A DNA stretch of 64,000 nucleotides, taken from positions 1,984,001 through 2,048,000 of the forward strand of contig NZ_JANADO010000001.1 in the NCBI RefSeq assembly GCF_024199845.1, in the 5' to 3' direction. The position numbers and the translations under genes are program-made. The stretch is from Bradyrhizobium sp. CCGB12. GTDB lineage: Bacteria; Pseudomonadota; Alphaproteobacteria; Rhizobiales; Xanthobacteraceae. The notes under the pieces are model-generated. The model was not told the origin of the DNA and did not search any database. It saw only the letters and a list, made by a program, of their open reading frames with translations. Positions 33,690-47,166 of this stretch are shown one piece after another; the first letter of the stretch is position 1, and each line of letters starts with the position of its first letter.

Positions 33690-34156
33690 CAAATCTCTCC
33701 CTGCGGTGAGGCGAATGGCCGCGGCGGCGGCCCCCGGCTTCGTTTAGTTTCGCTGGATGACAGTTTTGTTACAAGGGCGGAGAGGTATGCACTGCACAGC
33801 GTCCGGGGCACGAGATTGTCGTTTCAGCGCACAACTGCATCCTCCTCGTCATTGCGAGCGCAGCGAAGCAATCCAGAATCCCACCGCGGAGGTAGTCTGG
33901 ATTGCTTCGTCGCAAGGGCTCCTCGCAATGACGGAGCAAGTGGCCCCGACATGCTTCTGTAGCTGGCATTTCTATTGCAGAAACGCCTCCGTATCCTCGC
34001 GGCTTGTTCGCCCTAGCCTTGCTTCAATGCCTCACGATGGAAGAGGGCGCAGCGAAGACCGGGAGCCGGCCGGCTCCCGCTCGTCCCGTACGCAAGGGAT
34101 TGTGGCCGGAACGGTCAATCCGGCGCGGTCGGCACCAGCGTCGCCTGCGTGAGCGC
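33690..34156. promoter_or_regulatory. Intergenic region, 467 bases
   Basis: Between the phosphodiesterase gene and the short LuxR gene (both minus strand). It contains the imperfect palindromic element at 33845-33935 and a plus-strand frame at 34004-34153 with no ribosome site, rejected as a gene. Promoter for the phosphodiesterase should lie near 33700-33780. Confidence 0.4.
33845..33935. repeat. Imperfect palindromic repeat, cattgcgagcg family
   Basis: The left arm CTCGTCATTGCGAGCGCAGC ... GCAATCCAGA pairs with a right arm split in two: CTGGATTGCTTCG (33897-33909) and CCTCGCAATGACGGAG (33920-33935). An extra TCGCAAGGGCT between them makes it a cruciform-like variant of the perfect copy at 7975-8064. 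Confidence 0.8.
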
Positions 34157-34484: not shown

Positions 34485-35708
34485 TCACTCCGTCTTGAGT
34501 GCCTCGATCGGGCTGAGCTTGGATGCCTTGTGGGCGGGATAGAAACCGAAGATGAGGCCGGTCACGATCGAGAAGACGAGGGCAAGGCCGATCGCCTGAC
34601 CGTCGATCGAGGTGATCCACCCGGCCATGCGGGCGACCGTCATCGAGAGCGTGACGCCGGCGGCGACGCCGATGGCGCCGCCGAGCAGACAGAGAACGAG
34701 TGCCTCGCAGAGAAACTGAAGACGGATATCGCGCATCCGCCCGCCAAGCGCGCGGCGGATTCCGATCTCCCGCGTGCGCTCGGTGACCGAGACGATCATG
34801 ACGTTCATGATGCTGATGCCGCCGACGAGCAGCGAGACCGAGGCTATGGCGACGAGCAGCAGCGCGACGGTGCGGATCGCTCCCTGCTGCGCCTCCATGG
34901 CGGCGGCGGGATCCTGGACCTTGAAGTCGTCCTCCTGGCCGGAGGGAACACGGTGGCGCTGCCGCAGCAGGTTCTCGATCTCCGATCGCGCGCCCGCCAT
35001 CTGGCCGTCCGCAGCGACCTTGGCGATGATGTAGGCGACCGAGTCCCGGTTGATGTTGCTTGCGCTGCCGAGGAAGCGCAGCTTGGCCGTGGTGAGCGGC
35101 ACGAAAGCGACGTCGTCCTGCGCCGGTCCCTTGCGATCGAGGACGCCGACCACTTCGAGTGGCACCTTCATGATCCTGATCTGCGCGCCGATCGGATCGT
35201 CGCCGGGCGCGAACAGCTCGCGGGCCACCGTGCTTCCGAGCATCACGACCTTGCCGGCGCCGGCCTCCTCGGTCGCGGAAAAATAGCGCCCGCTCGCAAG
35301 CTGCCAGTCGCGTACCATGAAATGTCCTGTTGTCGTGCCGTTGATGGTCGTATTCCAGTTCTTGCCCTCGTGGATCACCTGCGCCGTTCCGGCGATCGAG
35401 CCGGCCGCAGCCTGGATCTCCGGAATTTGCTCGAGGATCGCCTGCACGTCGCTCTCGGTCATCGTCAGCTTGCTGCCGTCCTTGAGCCGCACGCCGCCCT
35501 GGTAGACCGCGCCGGGCGTGATCATCAGCACGTTGGCGCCGATCGAGCGGATCTGCTCCTGGAGGCGAAGCTGCGCGCCGGATCCGATCGCGAACACAGT
35601 CACGATCGAGGCAACGCCGATCACGATGCCGAGCATGGTAAGGAAGCTGCGCAGCGGATTGAGGCGCAAGGCATGCAGAGCGATCTGAAAGCCCTGAAGC
35701 ATCGTCAT
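34485..35708 (-). CDS. MacB/FtsX-like ABC transporter permease
   Basis: The 407-residue permease has an N-terminal membrane segment (LRSFLTMLGIVIGVASIVTV, about 19-38), a large periplasmic MacB-like domain (about 40-275) and three C-terminal transmembrane segments (VALLLVAIASVSLLVGGISIM; LCEALVLCLLGGAIGVAAG; IGLALVFSIVTGLIFGFYP). The GGISIMNVMIVSVTERTREIGIRRALGGR segment is the conserved cytoplasmic loop of this family. It should form a mechanotransmission-type exporter with the next two genes: start overlaps the ATPase stop in ATGA. Confidence 0.9.
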   Translation of the reverse strand: MTMLQGFQIALHALRLNPLRSFLTMLGIVIGVASIVTVFAIGSGAQLRLQEQIRSIGANVLMITPGAVYQGGVRLKDGSKLTMTESDVQAILEQIPEIQAAAGSIAGTAQVIHEGKNWNTTINGTTTGHFMVRDWQLASGRYFSATEEAGAGKVVMLGSTVARELFAPGDDPIGAQIRIMKVPLEVVGVLDRKGPAQDDVAFVPLTTAKLRFLGSASNINRDSVAYIIAKVAADGQMAGARSEIENLLRQRHRVPSGQEDDFKVQDPAAAMEAQQGAIRTVALLLVAIASVSLLVGGISIMNVMIVSVTERTREIGIRRALGGRMRDIRLQFLCEALVLCLLGGAIGVAAGVTLSMTVARMAGWITSIDGQAIGLALVFSIVTGLIFGFYPAHKASKLSPIEALKTE

Positions 35709-36430
35709 GACGCAGCGCTCCGTTTCGGCAGGACCGGGACCAGGGTCTCGTCGCTGACGAGCTCGCCATCATGCAGGCGGATCGTGCGCCGGCACCGTGT
35801 CGCGATGCCGGGATCATGGGTGATCATCACCACGGTCTGGCCCGTCCGGTTGAGTGCGGCGAACAGCGCCAGGATCTCGGCGCCGGTTCGGCTGTCGAGT
35901 GCGCCGGTCGGCTCGTCGGCGAGCACGATCAGCGGAGAGGCGATCAATGCGCGCGCAATCGCAACGCGCTGCTGCTCGCCGCCCGAGAGCTGCCGCGGGA
36001 AGTGATGGGCCCGGTGCAGCATGCCGACGGCCTCCAAACTCTGCTCGGCGCGCGCCAGACGTTCCCTGCGACCGATGCCGCAATAGACCAGGGGCAGCGC
36101 GACGTTCTCGATCGCATCGTGGCGGGCGAGCAGATTGTAGGACTGGAACACGAAGCCGATGCTGCGGGCGCGCAAGGCTGATCGGCGATCTTCCGAGAGA
36201 TCGGCGACGTTAGTCCCTTCGAGATGGATTGCGCCCTCGCTCGGCAGGTCGAGCAGGCCGATCATGTTCATCAGCGTCGACTTGCCGGAGCCGGACGGTC
36301 CCATCACGGCGACGATCTCGCCTTGCGCGATGTCGAAGCTGACATTGCGCACGGCGGCCACGGCTACGCCGTCGGTGCGATAGATCCTGCTGACTGATTG
36401 GAGGCTGATAAGGGGCGGAGAGGCGGTCAT
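35705..36430 (-). CDS. MacB-type ABC transporter ATP-binding protein
   Basis: The 241-residue ATPase has Walker A GPSGSGKST (near 44-52), Q-loop FQSYNLL, signature LSGGEQQRVAIARAL, Walker B LIVLADEPTGALD and H-loop THD. This is the LolD/MacB-type nucleotide-binding domain. The ATG at 36430 overlaps the stop of the HlyD-like gene (ATGA), and its own stop overlaps the permease start. The nucleotide-binding and permease parts are separate genes here, unlike E. coli MacB where they are fused. Confidence 0.93.
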   Translation of the reverse strand: MTASPPLISLQSVSRIYRTDGVAVAAVRNVSFDIAQGEIVAVMGPSGSGKSTLMNMIGLLDLPSEGAIHLEGTNVADLSEDRRSALRARSIGFVFQSYNLLARHDAIENVALPLVYCGIGRRERLARAEQSLEAVGMLHRAHHFPRQLSGGEQQRVAIARALIASPLIVLADEPTGALDSRTGAEILALFAALNRTGQTVVMITHDPGIATRCRRTIRLHDGELVSDETLVPVLPKRSAAS

Positions 36431-37854
36431 GACCCGAACCTGATCCCGAGAAATTCCATGCCTGCCGGACGGATGGCCTGGCCGACGGCGACCTGGCTGC
36501 CCTCGACCAGATCTCCGCTCCTGAGCGCGACCTGTTCGGTGCCGGCCGCGCCGACCGTCACGGCAACACGCTGGAGCGCGCCGCTTGTCGTGCGCACCCA
36601 CACGCTGCTGCGTGCAGCGGTGTCCGGACGCGTGCCGGCAGGCTGGAAGCGCAGCGCCGCGAGCGGCACCTTCAGCACGTCGTCCTGCCGCTCGATCACG
36701 ATCTTCACCAGGGCCGTCATGCCCGGCAGCAGCGCGCCGTCGAGATTGGAGGTGGCGAGAACGACGGTGTAGGTGACGACGTGCTGCTGAGTCTGCGGCG
36801 CCTTGCGCACCTGCCGCACCACCGCCTCGAAGCGGCGGTCCGGATAGGCGTCGACGGTGAAATGGGCGCGCTGGCCGGGGGCGATGCGCCCGATATCGGC
36901 TTCGTCGACCTGCGCATGAATCTCCATGTCCTCCAAGCGGTGCGCGACCACGAAGGTGGTGCGCGATTCAAGTCCGACCGCGAGCGTCTGGCCCTCGTTC
37001 ACGAACCTGCCGACGACGACGCCGTCGATCGGCGAACGGATCACGGTGCGGTCGAGATCGGCCTGCGCTGCGGCGAGAACGGCCGCTTTCTCCGGCACCG
37101 CCATGCGTACCTGTTGCAGTTCCGCCTCGATCCGGCGGACGTCGGCCTGCGCGCCATCGACCGAGTAGGAGTTGAGGGACATCAGCACCTCGGCTTCGCG
37201 TTCCTGGGCGAGACGCGCCGTGAACTCCGTCTGCGCGTCGTCGACCGTCGTCGTCGCCACCACGTTTTGCGACTGGAGCGCCAGCTTGCGCTGGAGGGTC
37301 TTCTGCGCCGAGGACTTGACCGCCTGCGCGCTCTCGAGCTTGGCGGCGAGCACATCGCGGCTGCCCCTGGCGTTTTGCAGATCGATCCTGGCGCGATCGA
37401 GCTTGGCCCGCGCGACGTCGACCAGCGAGTTAGCGACGGCAAGCGAAGCCCTGGCTTCGTCGACCTTGGCCGCAAAGCTGCGCGGATCGATCAAAGCGAG
37501 CGGCTGATCCTTAGCGACGGTGTCGTTGAAGTCGACATAGACCCTGGCGAGCTGCCCGGATAACTGAGAGCCCACCTCGATCGTCTTGACCGGCTGGAGG
37601 GCGCCGGTGACGGTGACGGTCTGCTCGATGCTGCCGCGCTGGATCGAGGCATAGCGGAACATCGGCGCATCCGCCCCGAAGGTAGCGGCCTCGCGCCCCA
37701 CCGGCACGAGCAGCCGCCTGGTCGAGTCAAAGGCGCGGGCGGCCCTGCCTGCCGCGCTCTCCGCTGCGCCGGTGATGACGGCCGGCCCCGCGGCGTAGAC
37801 CGCAGCGAGACCGCATGACGTTCCGAGCAAGGCAATAAATGGCACAAATCGCAT
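36427..37854 (-). CDS. MacA/HlyD-like periplasmic adaptor protein
   Basis: The 475-residue adaptor has an N-terminal signal/anchor (VPFIALLGTSCGLAAVYAAG), a lipoyl/barrel half (IEVGSQLSGQLARVYVDFND ... DQPLALIDPR), a long coiled-coil hairpin (about 125-240, rich in AKLDRARIDLQNARG-type heptads), then the second lipoyl half (IRSPIDGVVVGRFVNEGQTL) and beta-barrel/membrane-proximal domains. It links the ABC permease to an outer-membrane channel. First gene of the exporter operon; the outer-membrane factor is not in the window. Confidence 0.9.
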   Translation of the reverse strand: MRFVPFIALLGTSCGLAAVYAAGPAVITGAAESAAGRAARAFDSTRRLLVPVGREAATFGADAPMFRYASIQRGSIEQTVTVTGALQPVKTIEVGSQLSGQLARVYVDFNDTVAKDQPLALIDPRSFAAKVDEARASLAVANSLVDVARAKLDRARIDLQNARGSRDVLAAKLESAQAVKSSAQKTLQRKLALQSQNVVATTTVDDAQTEFTARLAQEREAEVLMSLNSYSVDGAQADVRRIEAELQQVRMAVPEKAAVLAAAQADLDRTVIRSPIDGVVVGRFVNEGQTLAVGLESRTTFVVAHRLEDMEIHAQVDEADIGRIAPGQRAHFTVDAYPDRRFEAVVRQVRKAPQTQQHVVTYTVVLATSNLDGALLPGMTALVKIVIERQDDVLKVPLAALRFQPAGTRPDTAARSSVWVRTTSGALQRVAVTVGAAGTEQVALRSGDLVEGSQVAVGQAIRPAGMEFLGIRFGS

Positions 37855-38456: not shown

Positions 38457-39116
38457 ATGAGGCCAGGTCAAGCCACAGTTTACGTCGTTGACGACGAAGT
38501 GCAGATTCGAACCGCGATAGGAAGTCTCTGCGAGGAGACCGGGCATCAGGTGAAGCTGTTCGCGTCGACCGAGGAGTTCCTCGCGGAGAGTATTTCAGGC
38601 GGACCTTCGTGCCTCGTGCTCGACGTCCGTTTCCCCGGCACGTCGCCGACCGGCCTCGAGCTGCAGCGCCGGCTGGCCGAGACGGGCGTCGCCATTCCGA
38701 TCGTTTTCATCAGCGGCCATTCCGACGTCCGTGTCTCGGTCGAAGCCATGAAGCGCGGCGCGGTCGAGTTTCTGCCGAAACCGTTTCGCGAGCAGGAGAT
38801 CCTCGACGCGATCAGACATGGCATCGAGCGTGACCGCAGACGAATGGAGCGCGAAGACGCCGTGCGCGACGCTCGGCAGCGCGTCGAGACGCTGACGGCG
38901 AGGGAGCGCGAGATCATGCTGCTGATGGCCGAGGGGCTCGTCGCCAAGCAGATCGCGGCGAAGCTCGGCGTGAGCGAGGTGACCGTGAAGGTGCATCGCG
39001 CCAGGATGATGCGAAAGCTGGAGCTGCGATCGCCGATCGAAGTGGTGCGACTGATCGACAGCATGGAGCGCGAAGCGGAGACGTCGCGCCCCGGCGTCCG
39101 ACAATCGCTCATCTAG
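38457..39116 (+). CDS. FixJ/LuxR-type response regulator
   Basis: The 219-residue protein has a receiver domain with acidic pocket D12-D13 (VYVVDDE), phospho-acceptor D56 (CLVLDVRFPG), T/S at SGHSD and the conserved K near 105 (FLPKPF), then a GerE-type helix-turn-helix (LTAREREIMLLMAEGLVAKQ; SEVTVKVHRARMMRKL). ATG 38457 follows GGGGAG. No cognate kinase gene is adjacent. It stands directly upstream of the curlin-repeat genes and divergent to the MacAB-like operon, which suggests control of either. Confidence 0.9.
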   Translation: MRPGQATVYVVDDEVQIRTAIGSLCEETGHQVKLFASTEEFLAESISGGPSCLVLDVRFPGTSPTGLELQRRLAETGVAIPIVFISGHSDVRVSVEAMKRGAVEFLPKPFREQEILDAIRHGIERDRRRMEREDAVRDARQRVETLTAREREIMLLMAEGLVAKQIAAKLGVSEVTVKVHRARMMRKLELRSPIEVVRLIDSMEREAETSRPGVRQSLI

Positions 39117-39282
39117 CTCGTCGTGTGGCGAGACACCGCGCAACGTCTAGTCCGTACCGACTAGCATGAACTACAGTCTGTCGCATGGAGCACGATCGGT
39201 TCAAAGTCATCCCTGCGATGTCGGCCTCCTTCGAGACGACATCCGAACCAAGTCGGACAACTTCGCCAGAAAGGGATACTCC

Positions 39283-39684
39283 ATGCGTAAATTTATTTTT
39301 GCTTCCGTTGCCGTGCTCGCTTTGTCCTCCGCGGCGCAGGCCGCCAACACGTCGACGACCGTGCAGGTCGGCCTCGTGAACGGTTCGAGCGTTTCGCAGA
39401 ACGGCCTCACCAACTCCACCTCGTCGACCAGCCAGCTCGGCCTCGTGAACACTGCGACCACGATGCAGGGAACAAGTGCGGCCTCGCTCAACAACGGCAG
39501 CACGGTGAACCAGGTCGGCGTGCAGAACACGGCGAACACCGGCCAGGTGGCGTTCGGCAACAACACCAGCGCAATCACCCAGAACTCGTTCGGGCCTGCC
39601 GCGCTCCAGAACAACTCCGCCGGCGTCGGCCAGCTCAGCGTGTTCGGCACCAACGGCAGCACCGTCTCGCAGACGGCGCACTGA
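39283..39684 (+). CDS. Curlin-repeat exported protein 1
   Basis: The 133-residue product has a signal peptide (MRKFIFASVAVLALSSAAQA) and a mature part of about eight imperfect 11-12 residue units of the form N-x5-Q-x-G, e.g. NTSTTVQVGLV, NGSSVSQNGL and NTANTGQVAFG. Asn, Gln, Ser, Thr and Gly dominate; charged residues are almost absent. This matches the repeat logic of CsgA/CsgB curlins, whose strand-turn-strand units stack into amyloid fibres. AAGGGA precedes the ATG. It is the first of five consecutive genes of this kind. Confidence 0.75.
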   Translation: MRKFIFASVAVLALSSAAQAANTSTTVQVGLVNGSSVSQNGLTNSTSSTSQLGLVNTATTMQGTSAASLNNGSTVNQVGVQNTANTGQVAFGNNTSAITQNSFGPAALQNNSAGVGQLSVFGTNGSTVSQTAH

Positions 39685-39803
39685 AGCACGGACCGTTTGC
39701 CCGGACGCACTCAGGTCGGTGCGTTCGGGCCATTCCCGACAAGAGCGCAATCGGGCCGGTCGAGCAGTCGCGATCGCCCGCCTATTCCCGCGGAGGAAAT
39801 CAC

Positions 39804-40196
39804 ATGCGGATCACCTATCTCGTTGCGACGGTCGTGGCGCTCGGCGCGCTGACCTCCGTCGATGCAAGGGCCGCCAACTCGGCCAGCGTGCTGCAATTCG
39901 GCACGATCAACAGCTCCTTCATCTCGCAGAGCGGGTCCACCAGCAACAGCGCCACCACGATGCAGTTCGGCGCGACCAACCAGGCGACGACGTTGCAGAC
40001 GGGATCGCTGCTCACTGTCAACACCTCGGTGATCGGGCAGGGCGGTACCACCGCGACCGCGTCCAACACCGCGGTGGCCGGCCAGGTCGGCGGCTCCAAT
40101 TCGAGCCTGATCGGCCAGATCGGCGCCAACAATGTGGCCGGTGTCGGACAGCTCGGGATCCTGAACGGATCGACGATTCTGCAGCAGGCTCCGTGA
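39804..40196 (+). CDS. Curlin-repeat exported protein 2
   Basis: The 130-residue protein has a signal peptide (LVATVVALGALTSVDARA) and the same N-x5-Q-x-G units as its neighbour: NSASVLQFGTI, NSATTMQFGAT, NSSLIGQIGA, NNVAGVGQLGIL, ending NGSTILQQAP. The C-terminal NGSTxxQ is shared with protein 1 (NGSTVSQ) and protein 3 (NGSTIVQ). GCGGAGGAAATCAC gives a strong ribosome site. Amyloid or fibre assembly is inferred from the repeat pattern. Confidence 0.75.
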   Translation: MRITYLVATVVALGALTSVDARAANSASVLQFGTINSSFISQSGSTSNSATTMQFGATNQATTLQTGSLLTVNTSVIGQGGTTATASNTAVAGQVGGSNSSLIGQIGANNVAGVGQLGILNGSTILQQAP

Positions 40197-40222
40197 GCAA
40201 GTCTGAAGTTGCGAGGCATGTC

Positions 40223-40633
40223 ATGAAACATCCTTTGGGAAGTGCATTTGCCGCAATGCTCGCCCTGTGCTCGGCCGGTGCAGGCTCGGCCGGTGCCCAG
40301 ACGGCCGACATCAAGACCATCGTGTCGGTCGGTGGACCGCCCGTCGTGTTGAACCAGAATAGTCAGCTCAACATGGCGGGCGTGTTCATGATCGGTGGCA
40401 GCACCAGCGCGACCGTGGTCCAGAACGGCACCAACAACGCCACCGGCGTCCTGCAATTCGGCGGGACCAATTCGACATCGATCGGTCAGGCCGGGACGAA
40501 CAATTTCGCGTTCGTCGGTCAGGCCGGCCAGTCGGCGACCAGCCTCGTCGCGCAGCTCGGCTCCATGAATACGGGTGTGGTCAAGCAGTTCGGTGCGGTC
40601 AACGGCTCGACCATCGTCCAGACCAGCCCGTGA
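40223..40633 (+). CDS. Curlin-repeat exported protein 3
   Basis: The 136-residue product has a signal peptide (FAAMLALCSAGAGSAGA, residues 9-25). A short N-terminal module (PVVLNQNSQLNMAGVFMIGG) is followed by units such as NATGVLQFGG, NSTSIGQAGT and MNTGVVKQFGAV, ending NGSTIVQTSP. The module and the MNTGVVKQFG unit are closely matched by protein 4 (SRINIARVIQIGG, MNTGAVRQFG), so the two are recent paralogues. ATG 40223, 26 bases after the previous stop. Confidence 0.72.
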   Translation: MKHPLGSAFAAMLALCSAGAGSAGAQTADIKTIVSVGGPPVVLNQNSQLNMAGVFMIGGSTSATVVQNGTNNATGVLQFGGTNSTSIGQAGTNNFAFVGQAGQSATSLVAQLGSMNTGVVKQFGAVNGSTIVQTSP

Positions 40634-40678
40634 CGGGCGAGCGATCTCGTCGGCGTCGACAACGAACGGGGAAGCGCG

Positions 40679-41140
40679 ATGCGATGCGGCAGACAGGTGT
40701 TGTGGCGGAGCTTCGCGCTGGCCGTGTTGATTGGCGCCGTCGGCGCGGCGACGCAGGCGTCGGCCGGATCCGTCCAGCGCAGCGTGACCAACCGGAACGT
40801 CAGCATCGAGACGGTCGTGCAATTCGGCGACAACGTTCAGCCTGTTACGATCGAGGAGAACAGCCGCATCAACATCGCGCGGGTGATCCAGATCGGCGGG
40901 ACCGGGACGGTGGACGCGACCATCATCCAGAACGGCACGCGCAACTATGCCAACGTGACCCAGGTCGGCGGCCCCACCAATGCGGCGATCGGTCAGTCCG
41001 GCGTGAGCAACATCGCCGAGATCACCCAGATCGGCAATTCCACCAACGCGCTCCTGCTCCAGATCGGAGACATGAACACGGGAGCGGTGAGGCAGTTCGG
41101 GCGTTTCAACTGGCTGGTGATCTTCCAGTTCGGCCGATGA
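40679..41140 (+). CDS. Curlin-repeat exported protein 4
   Basis: The 153-residue protein has a signal peptide (SFALAVLIGAVGAATQASA) and a charged N-terminal module (TIEENSRINIARVIQIGG), then units NGTRNYANVTQVGG, NAAIGQSGVS, NIAEITQIG, NALLLQIGD, MNTGAVRQFG and a hydrophobic end (WLVIFQFGR). It has more Ile/Arg than the others, so it could act as nucleator or cap in a CsgB-like role; that is inference. GGGGAAGCGCG precedes the ATG. Confidence 0.72.
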   Translation: MRCGRQVLWRSFALAVLIGAVGAATQASAGSVQRSVTNRNVSIETVVQFGDNVQPVTIEENSRINIARVIQIGGTGTVDATIIQNGTRNYANVTQVGGPTNAAIGQSGVSNIAEITQIGNSTNALLLQIGDMNTGAVRQFGRFNWLVIFQFGR

Positions 41141-41152
41141 TGGAGGTGTGAC

Positions 41153-41434
41153 ATGAAGTTGCTTCTGCTGGCATCCGGAATAGGGATCATGAGCGTGGTT
41201 GCGGCAGCGCCGGCCGGGGCCGGCGACGGTCACACCACGGTGGTTCAGGACGAGAACGGCACGTCCGTGATCACGCAGAGCGGCGATCCCGCGCAGGCCG
41301 AAGTCAGAATTGAGAAAGAGCCGGGACGCACGACGGTCTACCGCCGCAGCGGCGGAAACACCGCGATCGTGTCGCAAGGCACCGGCAATCCGCAGGACAT
41401 GCTCGACTGGCTGCGCAAGCAGCAAGGCCGCTGA
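41153..41434 (+). CDS. Short curlin-associated exported protein 5
   Basis: The 93-residue protein begins with a signal peptide (LLLLASGIGIMSVVAAAPAGA), has one or two NGTSVITQSG-like units and then a charged tail (EVRIEKEPGRTTVYRRSGGN, DWLRKQQGR). It is much more charged than proteins 1-4 and may be an accessory or anchoring factor. It starts 12 bases after protein 4 and ends before a bidirectional terminator. Confidence 0.65.
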   Translation: MKLLLLASGIGIMSVVAAAPAGAGDGHTTVVQDENGTSVITQSGDPAQAEVRIEKEPGRTTVYRRSGGNTAIVSQGTGNPQDMLDWLRKQQGR

Positions 41435-41487: not shown

Positions 41488-41769
41488 TTACCAGCGATAG
41501 ATGCCGGTCAGCGTGCCGTTGTTGTTGCCTTCAGGGCCGACATCGCCCTGCGACGAACTCGGGGTCGGATGGTTGCTGCCGTTGAGCGCGCCATAGGACC
41601 CGGCGACATCAGGATAATACGCGCGAGGCTGAACCGGTTCGTAGGCGGGCGCGGTGCGGTCCCAACCCACGCGCGGGCCGTTCCAATCGTAACCCTGTGC
41701 CGAGGCGGCCGCAGTGCCCGCGACGAGCGATGCCGTGATCAGGCAGAGGAGTTTTGACTTGTTCTGCAT
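41488..41769 (-). CDS. Small secreted hypothetical protein
   Basis: The 93-residue product has a signal peptide (LLCLITASLVAGTAAASA, residues 7-24) and an Asn/Gly/Pro/Ser-rich mature part ending GNNNGTLTGIYRW. ATG 41769 follows AGGAGC. No family recognised; it is convergent with the curlin-repeat operon. Confidence 0.7.
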   Translation of the reverse strand: MQNKSKLLCLITASLVAGTAAASAQGYDWNGPRVGWDRTAPAYEPVQPRAYYPDVAGSYGALNGSNHPTPSSSQGDVGPEGNNNGTLTGIYRW

Positions 41770-42054: not shown

Positions 42055-42513
42055 ATGATGTCCAGATCACATGGCAGATCATTTGGGGCGCTATTCGCCT
42101 CCCTCGGCGCAGCCGCGCTGCTCCTTAGCCCCAGCGACAGTTTTGCCAGACCCGGCGGCGGCGCGCCGCATGGAATGGCCGCCGCGCCTCCAGGTGCAAT
42201 GGCGCGTGCGCCGATCGGGCCGGGGGCCCGGTTCCACCGTCGCAACAATGCCTTTGTCTACTGGCCCGGTGGCGGCGGGTTCTTCTACGACGGCGCGACG
42301 TACAGCCAGCCCTTTGGCGAGGCGGCGCAGCCGCTCTCCAACGATGTGCGCTACACCTACACCTATGACGTTCCCTGGGACTGGGCGCATCGCTTCCCGC
42401 CGAACGTCGTGCCGTCCGACCGGCCTTATGTGCCGAGCTGCCCGACGGAGCAGGTTACGGTGCCCGGCCGCGGCGGCATCGAGCACACCGTCAACATCAT
42501 GCGCTGCTACTGA
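42055..42513 (+). CDS. Secreted hypothetical protein with C-terminal CxxxxVTVPGRGG motif
   Basis: A 152-residue exported protein: signal segment FGALFASLGAAALLLSPSDSFA, an Ala/Pro/Gly-rich linker, then FVYWPGGGGFFYDGATYSQP and a conserved end YVPSCPTEQVTVPGRGGIEH TVNIMRCY with two cysteines that may form a disulfide. I recognise the YVPSC...EQVTVPG end from rhizobial hypotheticals. Starts MMSRSHG (ATG 42055); the neighbour at 42515 abuts tail-to-tail. Confidence 0.68.
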   Translation: MMSRSHGRSFGALFASLGAAALLLSPSDSFARPGGGAPHGMAAAPPGAMARAPIGPGARFHRRNNAFVYWPGGGGFFYDGATYSQPFGEAAQPLSNDVRYTYTYDVPWDWAHRFPPNVVPSDRPYVPSCPTEQVTVPGRGGIEHTVNIMRCY

Positions 42514-45450: not shown

Positions 45451-47166
45451 CCCGGATTGCGCTTCGAGACTGGGCAAGATTCTAACATCGAGTGAAGGTA
45501 GGATTCGGCATGACGAATCGTACCTTCAAAACCGGCGTCAGGCGGGATCAGCCGAGCCTTCTGCCGGCGCGGGTGGAAGATTATGTGGCCGGCGACAATC
45601 CGGTTCGGGTGATCGAGGCTTTTGTTGCAGCGCTTGACCTCGGGAAGCTTGGCTTCCGCCATGCCGGATCGAGCGGCGGGGCTGGACAGCCACCTTATGA
45701 CCCGGCCGACCTGCTGAAGCTTTATCTTTATGGCTACCTGAACCGGATCCGGTCGTCGCGCAACCTGGAGCGCGAAGCCCGGCGCAATCTGGAACTGATC
45801 TGGCTGATGAAGCGCCTGGTGCCGGGCTATCGCACCATCGCCAAGTTCCGCCAGGAGAACTGGAAGACGCTCAAGGCGGTGAACCGGGAGTTTGTGCTGA
45901 TGCTGCGCGAACTCGGTCTGATTGGCGGAGAGGTTGTGGCGATCGACGGTGCGTTTTTTGATGGCAACGCCAGCAAGGCGAGCATCAAAACGCAGCGCAA
46001 GCTCGCCAAGCGGCTGGCGGAGATCGAGCAGGATATTGAAGCCTATGGTGCCACGCTCGAGGCCAACGACAGCGCCGAGGTGGAACGTCCACCCGCGGGG
46101 CGGGATGGCGGAGGCGATGGCAGTCGCGGCGGAGACCTCGCACAAGAGGTGGCGGCGTTGATGGCCAAGCGCGCCAGCTTGCAGGCCGATCTGGCACGAC
46201 TGGAGGAGAGCGGGCAGACGCAGCTGTCGCGAACCGATCCGGATGCCCGCCTGTTGTCGAAGAACGGCCAGGTGGTGGCAGGCTATAACGTTCAGATCGG
46301 CGTCGACGACAAGCACGCTCTGATCGCGGCGAGCGAGGTCGTCAACGACGGCAACGATAGCGGCCAGCTTTACGACATGGCCAAGGCCGCAAAGGACGAG
46401 CTTGGCGTCGAGACGCTGACGGTTCTCGCCGATACCGGCTACTACAACGGCCATACGCTCAAGGACTGCGAGGAGAACGGCATTGCCGCCTACGTTCCGC
46501 TGGCCAAGCGAACCACGCGGCTCGAAGCGCAGGATCGCATCAGCCATGAGGCGTTCGCCTACGACGCCGAAGCGGATGTCTATCGCTGTCCCGCCGGCAA
46601 GCAGCTGCGTCCCACGGACGGTCGCAAGACCAACGGCAACCGGATCGAGATCAGGTATGTCAGCCGCAAGTCAGATTGCGACGCCTGCCCGCTGCGCGCG
46701 CGCTGTGTCACCGTCAAGATCCCGACGCGCACCGTCCAGCGCTGGGAGCATGAAGCGGTGCTGGATCGGCATCGCGCGCGGATGCAGGGCGCCGAGGCCC
46801 AGATGCGCCGCCGCGCCGAACTCGCCGAACACCCCTTCGGCACCATCAAATGCCGGGCCGGCTACCGCCACTTCCTCGTCCGCGGCTTCGACAAAGTCTG
46901 TGGCGAATGGAGCCTGATGGCGCTTTGCTACAATTTCTCCCGAGTCCTCAGCATTCTCGGCCTCGACGCCTTCATGGCCTATCTGGCAAGCCGGCTTCCG
47001 CATTTGGCACTCTTGCTGCTCAACGCCATCACCGACATCACCGACATCATCACCCGGATACGGCCCGCTCCAGCGCCAATCCGAGCCCAAATCCGTCCAA
47101 TTTTCCGATATGCCGCGTAAGCCGCGCCCAAACAAATACTTGCCCAGCCTCGAAGCGTAATCCGGG
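45451..47166. mobile_element. IS1182-family insertion sequence
   Basis: Element of about 1.7 kb with one transposase gene. Near-terminal inverted repeats run from 45451 inward (CCCGGATTGCGCTTCGAGAC then TGGGCAAG) and from 47166 inward (reverse complement CCCGGATTACGCTTCGAGGC then TGGGCAAG): 28 bp with two mismatches. No clear target duplication. The outer part of these repeats also matches the chromosomal palindrome remnant at 47187-47223, so the exact ends are uncertain. Confidence 0.75.
45510..47120 (+). CDS. IS1182-family transposase
   Basis: The 536-residue DDE transposase is complete. N-terminal DUF772-like region (RQDQPSLLPARVEDYV-like start, YDPADLLKLYLYGYLNRIRSSR), catalytic Asp in VVAIDGAFFDGN (about 148), second Asp in LADTGYYNG (about 311) and Glu in AEHPFGTIKCRAG (about 440), plus a cysteine-rich DCDACPLRARC knuckle. 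This arrangement is IS1182/IS4-superfamily. ATG 45510 follows AGGTAGGA; GTG 45492 is possible. No frameshift or stop, so it may be active. Confidence 0.93.
   Translation: MTNRTFKTGVRRDQPSLLPARVEDYVAGDNPVRVIEAFVAALDLGKLGFRHAGSSGGAGQPPYDPADLLKLYLYGYLNRIRSSRNLEREARRNLELIWLMKRLVPGYRTIAKFRQENWKTLKAVNREFVLMLRELGLIGGEVVAIDGAFFDGNASKASIKTQRKLAKRLAEIEQDIEAYGATLEANDSAEVERPPAGRDGGGDGSRGGDLAQEVAALMAKRASLQADLARLEESGQTQLSRTDPDARLLSKNGQVVAGYNVQIGVDDKHALIAASEVVNDGNDSGQLYDMAKAAKDELGVETLTVLADTGYYNGHTLKDCEENGIAAYVPLAKRTTRLEAQDRISHEAFAYDAEADVYRCPAGKQLRPTDGRKTNGNRIEIRYVSRKSDCDACPLRARCVTVKIPTRTVQRWEHEAVLDRHRARMQGAEAQMRRRAELAEHPFGTIKCRAGYRHFLVRGFDKVCGEWSLMALCYNFSRVLSILGLDAFMAYLASRLPHLALLLLNAITDITDIITRIRPAPAPIRAQIRPIFRYAA

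Follow-up and report, generated by a model that had tools for sequence, protein, structure and literature searches.

Curlin Genes Linked to a MacAB-Type Exporter in CsgG-less Genomes of Bradyrhizobium

Introduction

How might curlin subunits leave a cell that lacks CsgG? The question is raised by a 64,000-nucleotide stretch of the genome of Bradyrhizobium sp. CCGB12 (the window), in which five consecutive plus-strand genes (39283–41434) encode small proteins, here called proteins 1 to 5, four of which appear to be curlins. A first-pass annotation of the window had described this array; the main news adjoins it, outside those coordinates. Genes for the permease, ATPase, and adaptor of a MacAB-type exporter and for a FixJ-type response regulator lie beside the array, and exporter, regulator, and array form a nine-gene unit by genetic linkage. 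We propose, with a probability of about 0.45, that the adjacent exporter is the main outlet for the curlins in a CsgG-independent, curli-like system.

The known exit for curli subunits is an entropy-driven pore. Curlins without CsgG are already known, and the link to an exporter appears to be the new element. Passages of Dueholm et al. (2012) state that in many Alphaproteobacteria curlin subunits are all that could be identified, the tasks of the absent Csg components necessarily falling to other proteins; the term "ABC transporter" (ATP-binding cassette transporter) occurs 0 times in the main text of that paper (PMC3521004). In the part cited here, a 2023 survey gives CsgG as missing from 1033 of 43279 curlin genomes (PMC10192328). 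A search of titles and abstract openings, in which subscription literature was mostly not covered, found no publication tying curlins to a MacAB-type exporter or to an autotransporter fusion.

Results

Distribution of the Nine-Gene Unit

A genus set of 195 Bradyrhizobium genomes was scanned for the curlin repeat (PF07012), for CsgG, and for the exporter's periplasmic adaptor (counted at E <= 1e-100, with the best eight candidates per genome scored); these were found in 63, 10, and 51 genomes, respectively. Every one of the 51 adaptor genomes carries curlins, and none carries CsgG. The adaptor is thus present in 51 of the 63 curlin-positive genomes and in 0 of the 132 curlin-negative ones (Fisher value 9e-36, which ignores shared ancestry and is not a true probability). 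Curlins occur without the adaptor in 12 genomes, namely eight with CsgG, three (G059, G071, and G117) with a second CsgG-less arrangement described below as the sister type, and one with a remnant of the unit (G144). CsgG without a PF07012 match was seen in two of the 10 CsgG-positive genomes, at L044 (G015) and L046 (G048).

Forty curlin-match loci of 19–20 kb were fetched from the genus set, 39/40 from distinct genomes (G066 is represented twice). Of these 40, 32 share the gene order of the window (permease–ATPase–adaptor, then regulator–proteins 1 to 5). Among the 32, L061 lacks protein 4, L056 has a strongly diverged version of it, and L063 has a broken permease gene. The remaining eight are five CsgG loci, two of the sister type (L071 and L084), and one remnant (L076); L134, fetched later, is also of the window type. 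A scan of GTDB genomes with a protein 5 profile gave 46 further loci, overlapping partly with the genus-set genomes (44 titled Bradyrhizobium, one "Bradyrhizobiaceae bacterium," and one "Frankia sp. RB7"). For the individual genes, the number of these loci with an intact copy is 45 (regulator, protein 1, protein 5), 44 (protein 2, protein 3, protein 4, permease), or 43 (ATPase, adaptor), and CsgG occurs in none of the 46 stretches. In the genus-set loci the permease is intact in 32 of 33. Median ratios of nonsynonymous to synonymous substitution rates (dN/dS) for the exporter genes (0.055, 0.131, and 0.108) indicate purifying selection.

The functions of MacB are split over two genes, permease and ATPase, and the MacB equivalog cut-off is missed; MacB is the best NCBIfam model for the ATPase, under its cut-off. 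The adaptor exceeds the cut-off of RND_mfp and matches the MacA model at 2.8e-41, under cut-off. The regulator, which matches the FixJ model at 1.9e-51 (under its cut-off) and two CARF-named PADLOC models through its DNA-binding part only, occupies what we take to be the place held by csgD in enteric curli loci. A scan for consensus promoters and terminators found none.

Absence of Csg Biogenesis Genes

The earlier observation that no csgG, csgE, or csgF gene adjoins the array extends to the whole source genome (9.43 Mb in two contigs, completeness rating 100%). CsgG (PF03783) gave 0 matches there at E <= 0.001, and CsgE and CsgF 0 matches each at E <= 10. In the control, the CsgG search was positive in four of 14 genomes, Escherichia coli and Caulobacter among them. 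As for HfaA, a CsgG-like HfaB partner should have surfaced in this PF03783 search, given the positive control in Caulobacter. No CsgH (PF21112) match in the source genome exceeded the cut-off, the best (E 0.019) being a frame with two stops; CsgC was not searched. All curlin matches over the cut-off in the source genome lie within this locus. Three weak matches near 1.44 Mb (E 2.4–3.0) were treated as noise; one of the three frames is, by its motif, presumably flagellin-like.

Curlin Nature of Proteins 1 to 4

The five-gene array itself was confirmed. Judged by eye, all five proteins have signal-peptide-like starts, a basic/hydrophobic stretch ending at an A-x-A-like site. The repeat units that had been described for proteins 1 to 4 hold up: N-x5-Q pairs number 8, 9, 5, and 5, against 1.49, 0.98, 1.02, and 1.18 expected, and these counts were reached by fractions of 0, 0, 0.0006, and 0.002 of the 20,000 shuffled versions made from the residues of each mature protein. 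Q-x10-Q spacing is also above expectation in all four, weakly so in protein 1 (0.043). When the five proteins were searched against PF07012, proteins 2, 3, and 4 passed the gathering score and proteins 1 and 5 did not. Among the relatives of protein 1 used for modelling and family scans (24 of 58, query included), five of 24 matched PF07012, the best at 9.7e-5. The AlphaFold model of protein 1 has the stacked strand-arc-strand solenoid fold expected of a curlin, and its best alignment is to the E. coli CsgA fibril. One aberrant alignment row each for proteins 1 and 5 (P0181 and P0125) was removed before modelling, and P0057 was omitted too. Proteins 3 and 4 are related, as first suggested, with 38% identity across 146 columns. 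Median dN/dS of the curlin genes is 0.22–0.36, in a set whose row L061 under protein 4 is actually protein 3. We regard proteins 1 to 4 as curlins with high confidence.

Protein 5

The proposal of a functional-amyloid locus with diversified subunits is supported in part. Protein 5 had been called a charged relative of the curlins, which profile comparison, family scans, and the shuffle test leave unsupported; comparison with protein 4 gave a probability of 3.7% and aligned the signal region only, and N-x5-Q occurs once against 0.27 expected, with no excess (shuffle fraction 0.25). Weak PF07012 matches occur in four of the 27 family members scanned (the query and 26 of 120 listed, from 174 found; best E 0.2), and the relative of protein 5 at a sister locus scores 18.5 bits with PF07012, below the cut-off of 20.7. 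These sub-cut-off matches leave room for a very remote curlin origin.

Protein 5 was also considered as a CsgH, and no match was found. It has no relative among solved structures (best E 0.4) and no PADLOC match, and its AlphaFold2 model is poor (predicted local distance difference test score, pLDDT, 48.9). Its median dN of 0.068 is the lowest among the five proteins, with a median dN/dS of 0.105. A tblastn search at 1e-5 found no match to it in 19 fetched CsgG-bearing loci; a relative of 146 residues does occur in the sister CsgG-less loci, with the common motif ITQSGDP and a profile probability of 97.7%. Protein 5 is a candidate periplasmic helper.

Gain and Loss of the Unit

The phosphatase-like gene that flanks the unit is present in 166 of the 195 genus genomes. 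Twenty phosphatase loci, hand-picked from curlin-negative genomes, represent the empty site: they contain no exporter gene and no gene for proteins 1 to 5, and a regulator match that is partial (31%) at most. In 17 of the 20, no more than about 4 kb separates the phosphatase from the right-hand neighbor s420 and further neighbors; s420 was not found in the other three loci (L109, L113, and L114). The same empty site occurs in four additional loci, of G017, G071, G117, and G059. G017 carries the nine genes at 9.57 Mb and the phosphatase at 2.04 Mb of the same contig; the usual flanking genes are not alongside the nine, and identity is 76% for the adaptor, 85% for the permease, and 74% for the regulator, against 92% for the phosphatase. 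Because this block is relocated and diverged relative to the phosphatase, it is consistent with acquisition of the unit as one piece.

At two loci the unit has decayed as a block. L076 retains protein 5 and the end of protein 4, with the end of the permease gene directly adjoining; L178 retains part of protein 5 only. L177 is interrupted by a contig end.

CsgG-less Curlins of Other Types

The sister type comprises six loci (L071, L084, and L196–L199) from five genomes, in each of which small curlins and the protein 5 relative accompany a fusion protein of 474–494 residues, whose curlin repeats lead into an autotransporter barrel (PF03797, 1.8e-38 to 1.5e-43 in 6/6). PF07012 is over the cut-off in three of the six fusions and just below it in the other three. 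CsgG is absent from the sister-type genomes, two of which (G047 and G066) also hold the window type. Additional copies of the small genes are present in L084, L196, and L199. Protein 3 aligns to the fusion passenger with 36% identity over 107 columns, which suggests proteins 3 and 4 as candidate surface nucleators.

Across 296 genomes of the family, curlins occur in 31, 22 of them outside the genus. Nineteen outside-genus curlin loci were obtained from 17 of these 22 genomes; CsgG lies in the locus for 13 genomes, and adaptor or permease in 0 of the 19 loci. When six outside genomes were searched in full, G400, G288, and G411 proved to have CsgG and the three of a genus designated g23 gave no match, so that CsgG is present in 16 of the 19 outside-genus genomes checked (G368, G420, and G460 fall outside the check). 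No protein 5 match was found near the curlins of g23 (four loci).

Features and Neighboring Genes

Table 1. Features of the nine-gene unit and of sister-type loci. Positions are in the window unless a locus is named.
Feature	Position	Strand	Details
MacB-type permease	34485..35708	-	407 aa; MacB periplasmic core PF12704 1e-47, FtsX PF02687 7.9e-19
ABC ATPase, MacB/LolD type	35705..36436	-	243 aa; PF00005 6.2e-34
MacA/HlyD-type periplasmic adaptor	36427..37854	-	475 aa; PF16576 4.5e-17, PF13437 2.3e-11
FixJ-type response regulator	38457..39116	+	Receiver PF00072 9.4e-22, LuxR-type helix-turn-helix PF00196 9.7e-19
Conserved block, candidate promoter/regulator site	39162..39184	+	Most conserved stretch of the regulator–gene 1 gap, 34 aligned sequences
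Protein 1, divergent curlin	39283..39684	+	133 aa; stacked-solenoid AlphaFold model
Protein 2, curlin	39804..40196	+	130 aa; PF07012 1.9e-11; 8c50 1.4e-19
Protein 3, curlin, N-terminal module common to protein 4	40223..40633	+	136 aa; PF07012 3.3e-11; 8c50 2.3e-22
Protein 4, curlin, conserved aromatic C-terminus	40679..41140	+	153 aa; PF07012 5.8e-11; 8c50 1.8e-26
Protein 5, charged, own small family	41153..41434	+	93 aa; no family match over cut-off
Sister-type loci	L071:7818-10803; L084:6290-9354; L196-L199

Two small proteins with signal-like starts and no Pfam match are encoded beside the unit (41488–41769, minus strand; 42061–42513, plus strand); they are retained at most empty sites and are therefore assigned to the flank rather than the unit. 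A 542-residue frame 4 kb downstream of the array (45492–47120, plus strand) is, we assume from its motif, transposase-like. The gap between phosphatase and permease encodes at 33757–34152 a peptide that we take to be typical of dispersed repeats, and a repeat element is more likely here than a gene.

Discussion

We infer fiber formation, the cargo of the pump, the role of protein 5, and regulation as follows. As curlin subunits, proteins 1 to 4 would pass through the inner membrane via Sec; the MacA/MacB-type exporter, paired with an outer-membrane duct of the TolC family whose gene lies elsewhere, would take up the unfolded periplasmic subunits and expel them at the cost of ATP, replacing CsgG–CsgE. 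Outside the cell the subunits would polymerize into beta-solenoid (amyloid) fibers, with protein 4 or 3 as the likeliest nucleator. Protein 5 would keep subunits soluble or hand them over, a role like that of CsgC/CsgH or CsgE without homology to them, and the FixJ-type regulator would turn the unit on.

The pump is proposed to replace CsgG because MacB pumps export Sec-translocated periplasmic proteins and because the genes are linked. As described in the cited part of PMC7943197, the Sec-translocated, periplasmic STII is exported by MacAB-TolC, and Aap/CexE are secreted by the MacB-related Aat system. A Sec-exported, unfolded curlin of 107–124 residues would fit a MacAB-type route. The locus resembles these systems, as portrayed in passages of PMC5985334 and PMC7943197, in its MacB-type permease and ATPase, its MacA-type adaptor, and known substrates that are periplasmic and Sec-translocated; it differs from them in that ATPase and permease are separate genes, the unit contains no duct or AatD-like gene, and the linked candidate substrates are curlins.

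In comparison with curli (csgBAC-csgDEFG) of E. coli and Salmonella, the small curlins with putative Sec signals, the N-x5-Q-x-G repeats, and the adjoining LuxR-type regulator are shared. In contrast to those systems, no CsgG, CsgE, CsgF, or CsgH/C-type gene exceeds the cut-off in this genome (CsgC lying outside the search), four curlins stand in place of two, and a FixJ-type regulator, a MacAB-type exporter, and protein 5 are present. The CsgG-less alphaproteobacterial loci with csgH described in passages of PMC3521004 likewise have curlins without known secretion genes; unlike them, the present locus has no CsgH and has an identified, linked exporter. CsgH inhibits CsgA fibrillation in vitro, according to the part of PMC4838910 cited here. 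The sister loci are similar to the window in their CsgG-less genomes, small curlins, and protein 5 relative, and differ in having the curlin-autotransporter fusion in place of the MacAB-type exporter.

A functional tie of some kind between curlins and exporter is likely. Several observations weigh against the view that curlins leave mainly through the exporter. The sampled genomes of the genus are kin, and a formal p-value overstates the association; adjacent genes may also be lost jointly without joint function. Exporter and curlins are transcribed divergently, and the window contains no TolC-family gene (PF02321 has 11 matches elsewhere in the source genome, in about six open frames). No MacAB exporter was found near the sister-type curlins, nor near those of g23 (L117, L118, L132, and L133; four of four loci by tblastn, three of four by inspection of frames). 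The best evidence against strict dependence of the curlins on the exporter is provided by three exporter lesions: parts of ATPase and adaptor are gone in L167, with curlins otherwise intact; adaptor and protein 4 are shortened in L171, with the other curlins intact; and the broken permease of L063 stands beside mostly intact curlins.

These lesions, and the CsgG-less curlins that occur without a nearby MacAB exporter in the sister-type and g23 loci, speak for an alternative in which the exporter would belong to the same programme and carry another cargo (a small molecule, lipid, or peptide for the biofilm), with curlins leaving through a pore encoded elsewhere; so does the breadth of MacB relatives, which according to passages of PMC5985334 range from pumps for many substrates to proteins that transport none. 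This alternative is unlikely, if the strongest of those considered: the unit contains no biosynthetic gene for another cargo, just curlins and protein 5, and curlins accompany the adaptor in all of its genomes. A periplasmic quality-control or stress-relief exporter, clearing misfolded or surplus curlin or the damage it causes, would account for the linkage, the separate promoters, and the tolerance of exporter lesions; it is improbable, leaving the main outlet of a CsgG-less genome unexplained. Linkage without function, in which neighbors are inherited and deleted together through position, draws on L076, which resembles a single deletion from the permease into protein 4, and on the joint loss that adjacency alone yields; we doubt it strongly, given the diverged nine genes of G017 at another site without the usual flanking genes, the order kept in 32 of 40 loci, and the lack of any intact adaptor without curlins among the 195 genomes. 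That proteins 1 to 4 are a non-amyloid surface or periplasmic beta-solenoid forming no curli-like fibers is also very unlikely.

With export of curlins by the MacAB-type pump as the preferred reading, we suggest tentatively that Bradyrhizobium may have two CsgG-free solutions to curli secretion, the recruitment of a dedicated MacAB-type pump with protein 5 as a new helper, which would be the one present in the window, and a curlin-autotransporter fusion. The locus offers a testable candidate for the replacement proteins called for by Dueholm et al., in a plant-symbiont genus that can be cultivated in the laboratory. Should curlins prove to be its cargo, the pump would be an ATP-driven, active alternative to CsgG for amyloid secretion, with protein 5 as a new factor in the handling of amyloid.
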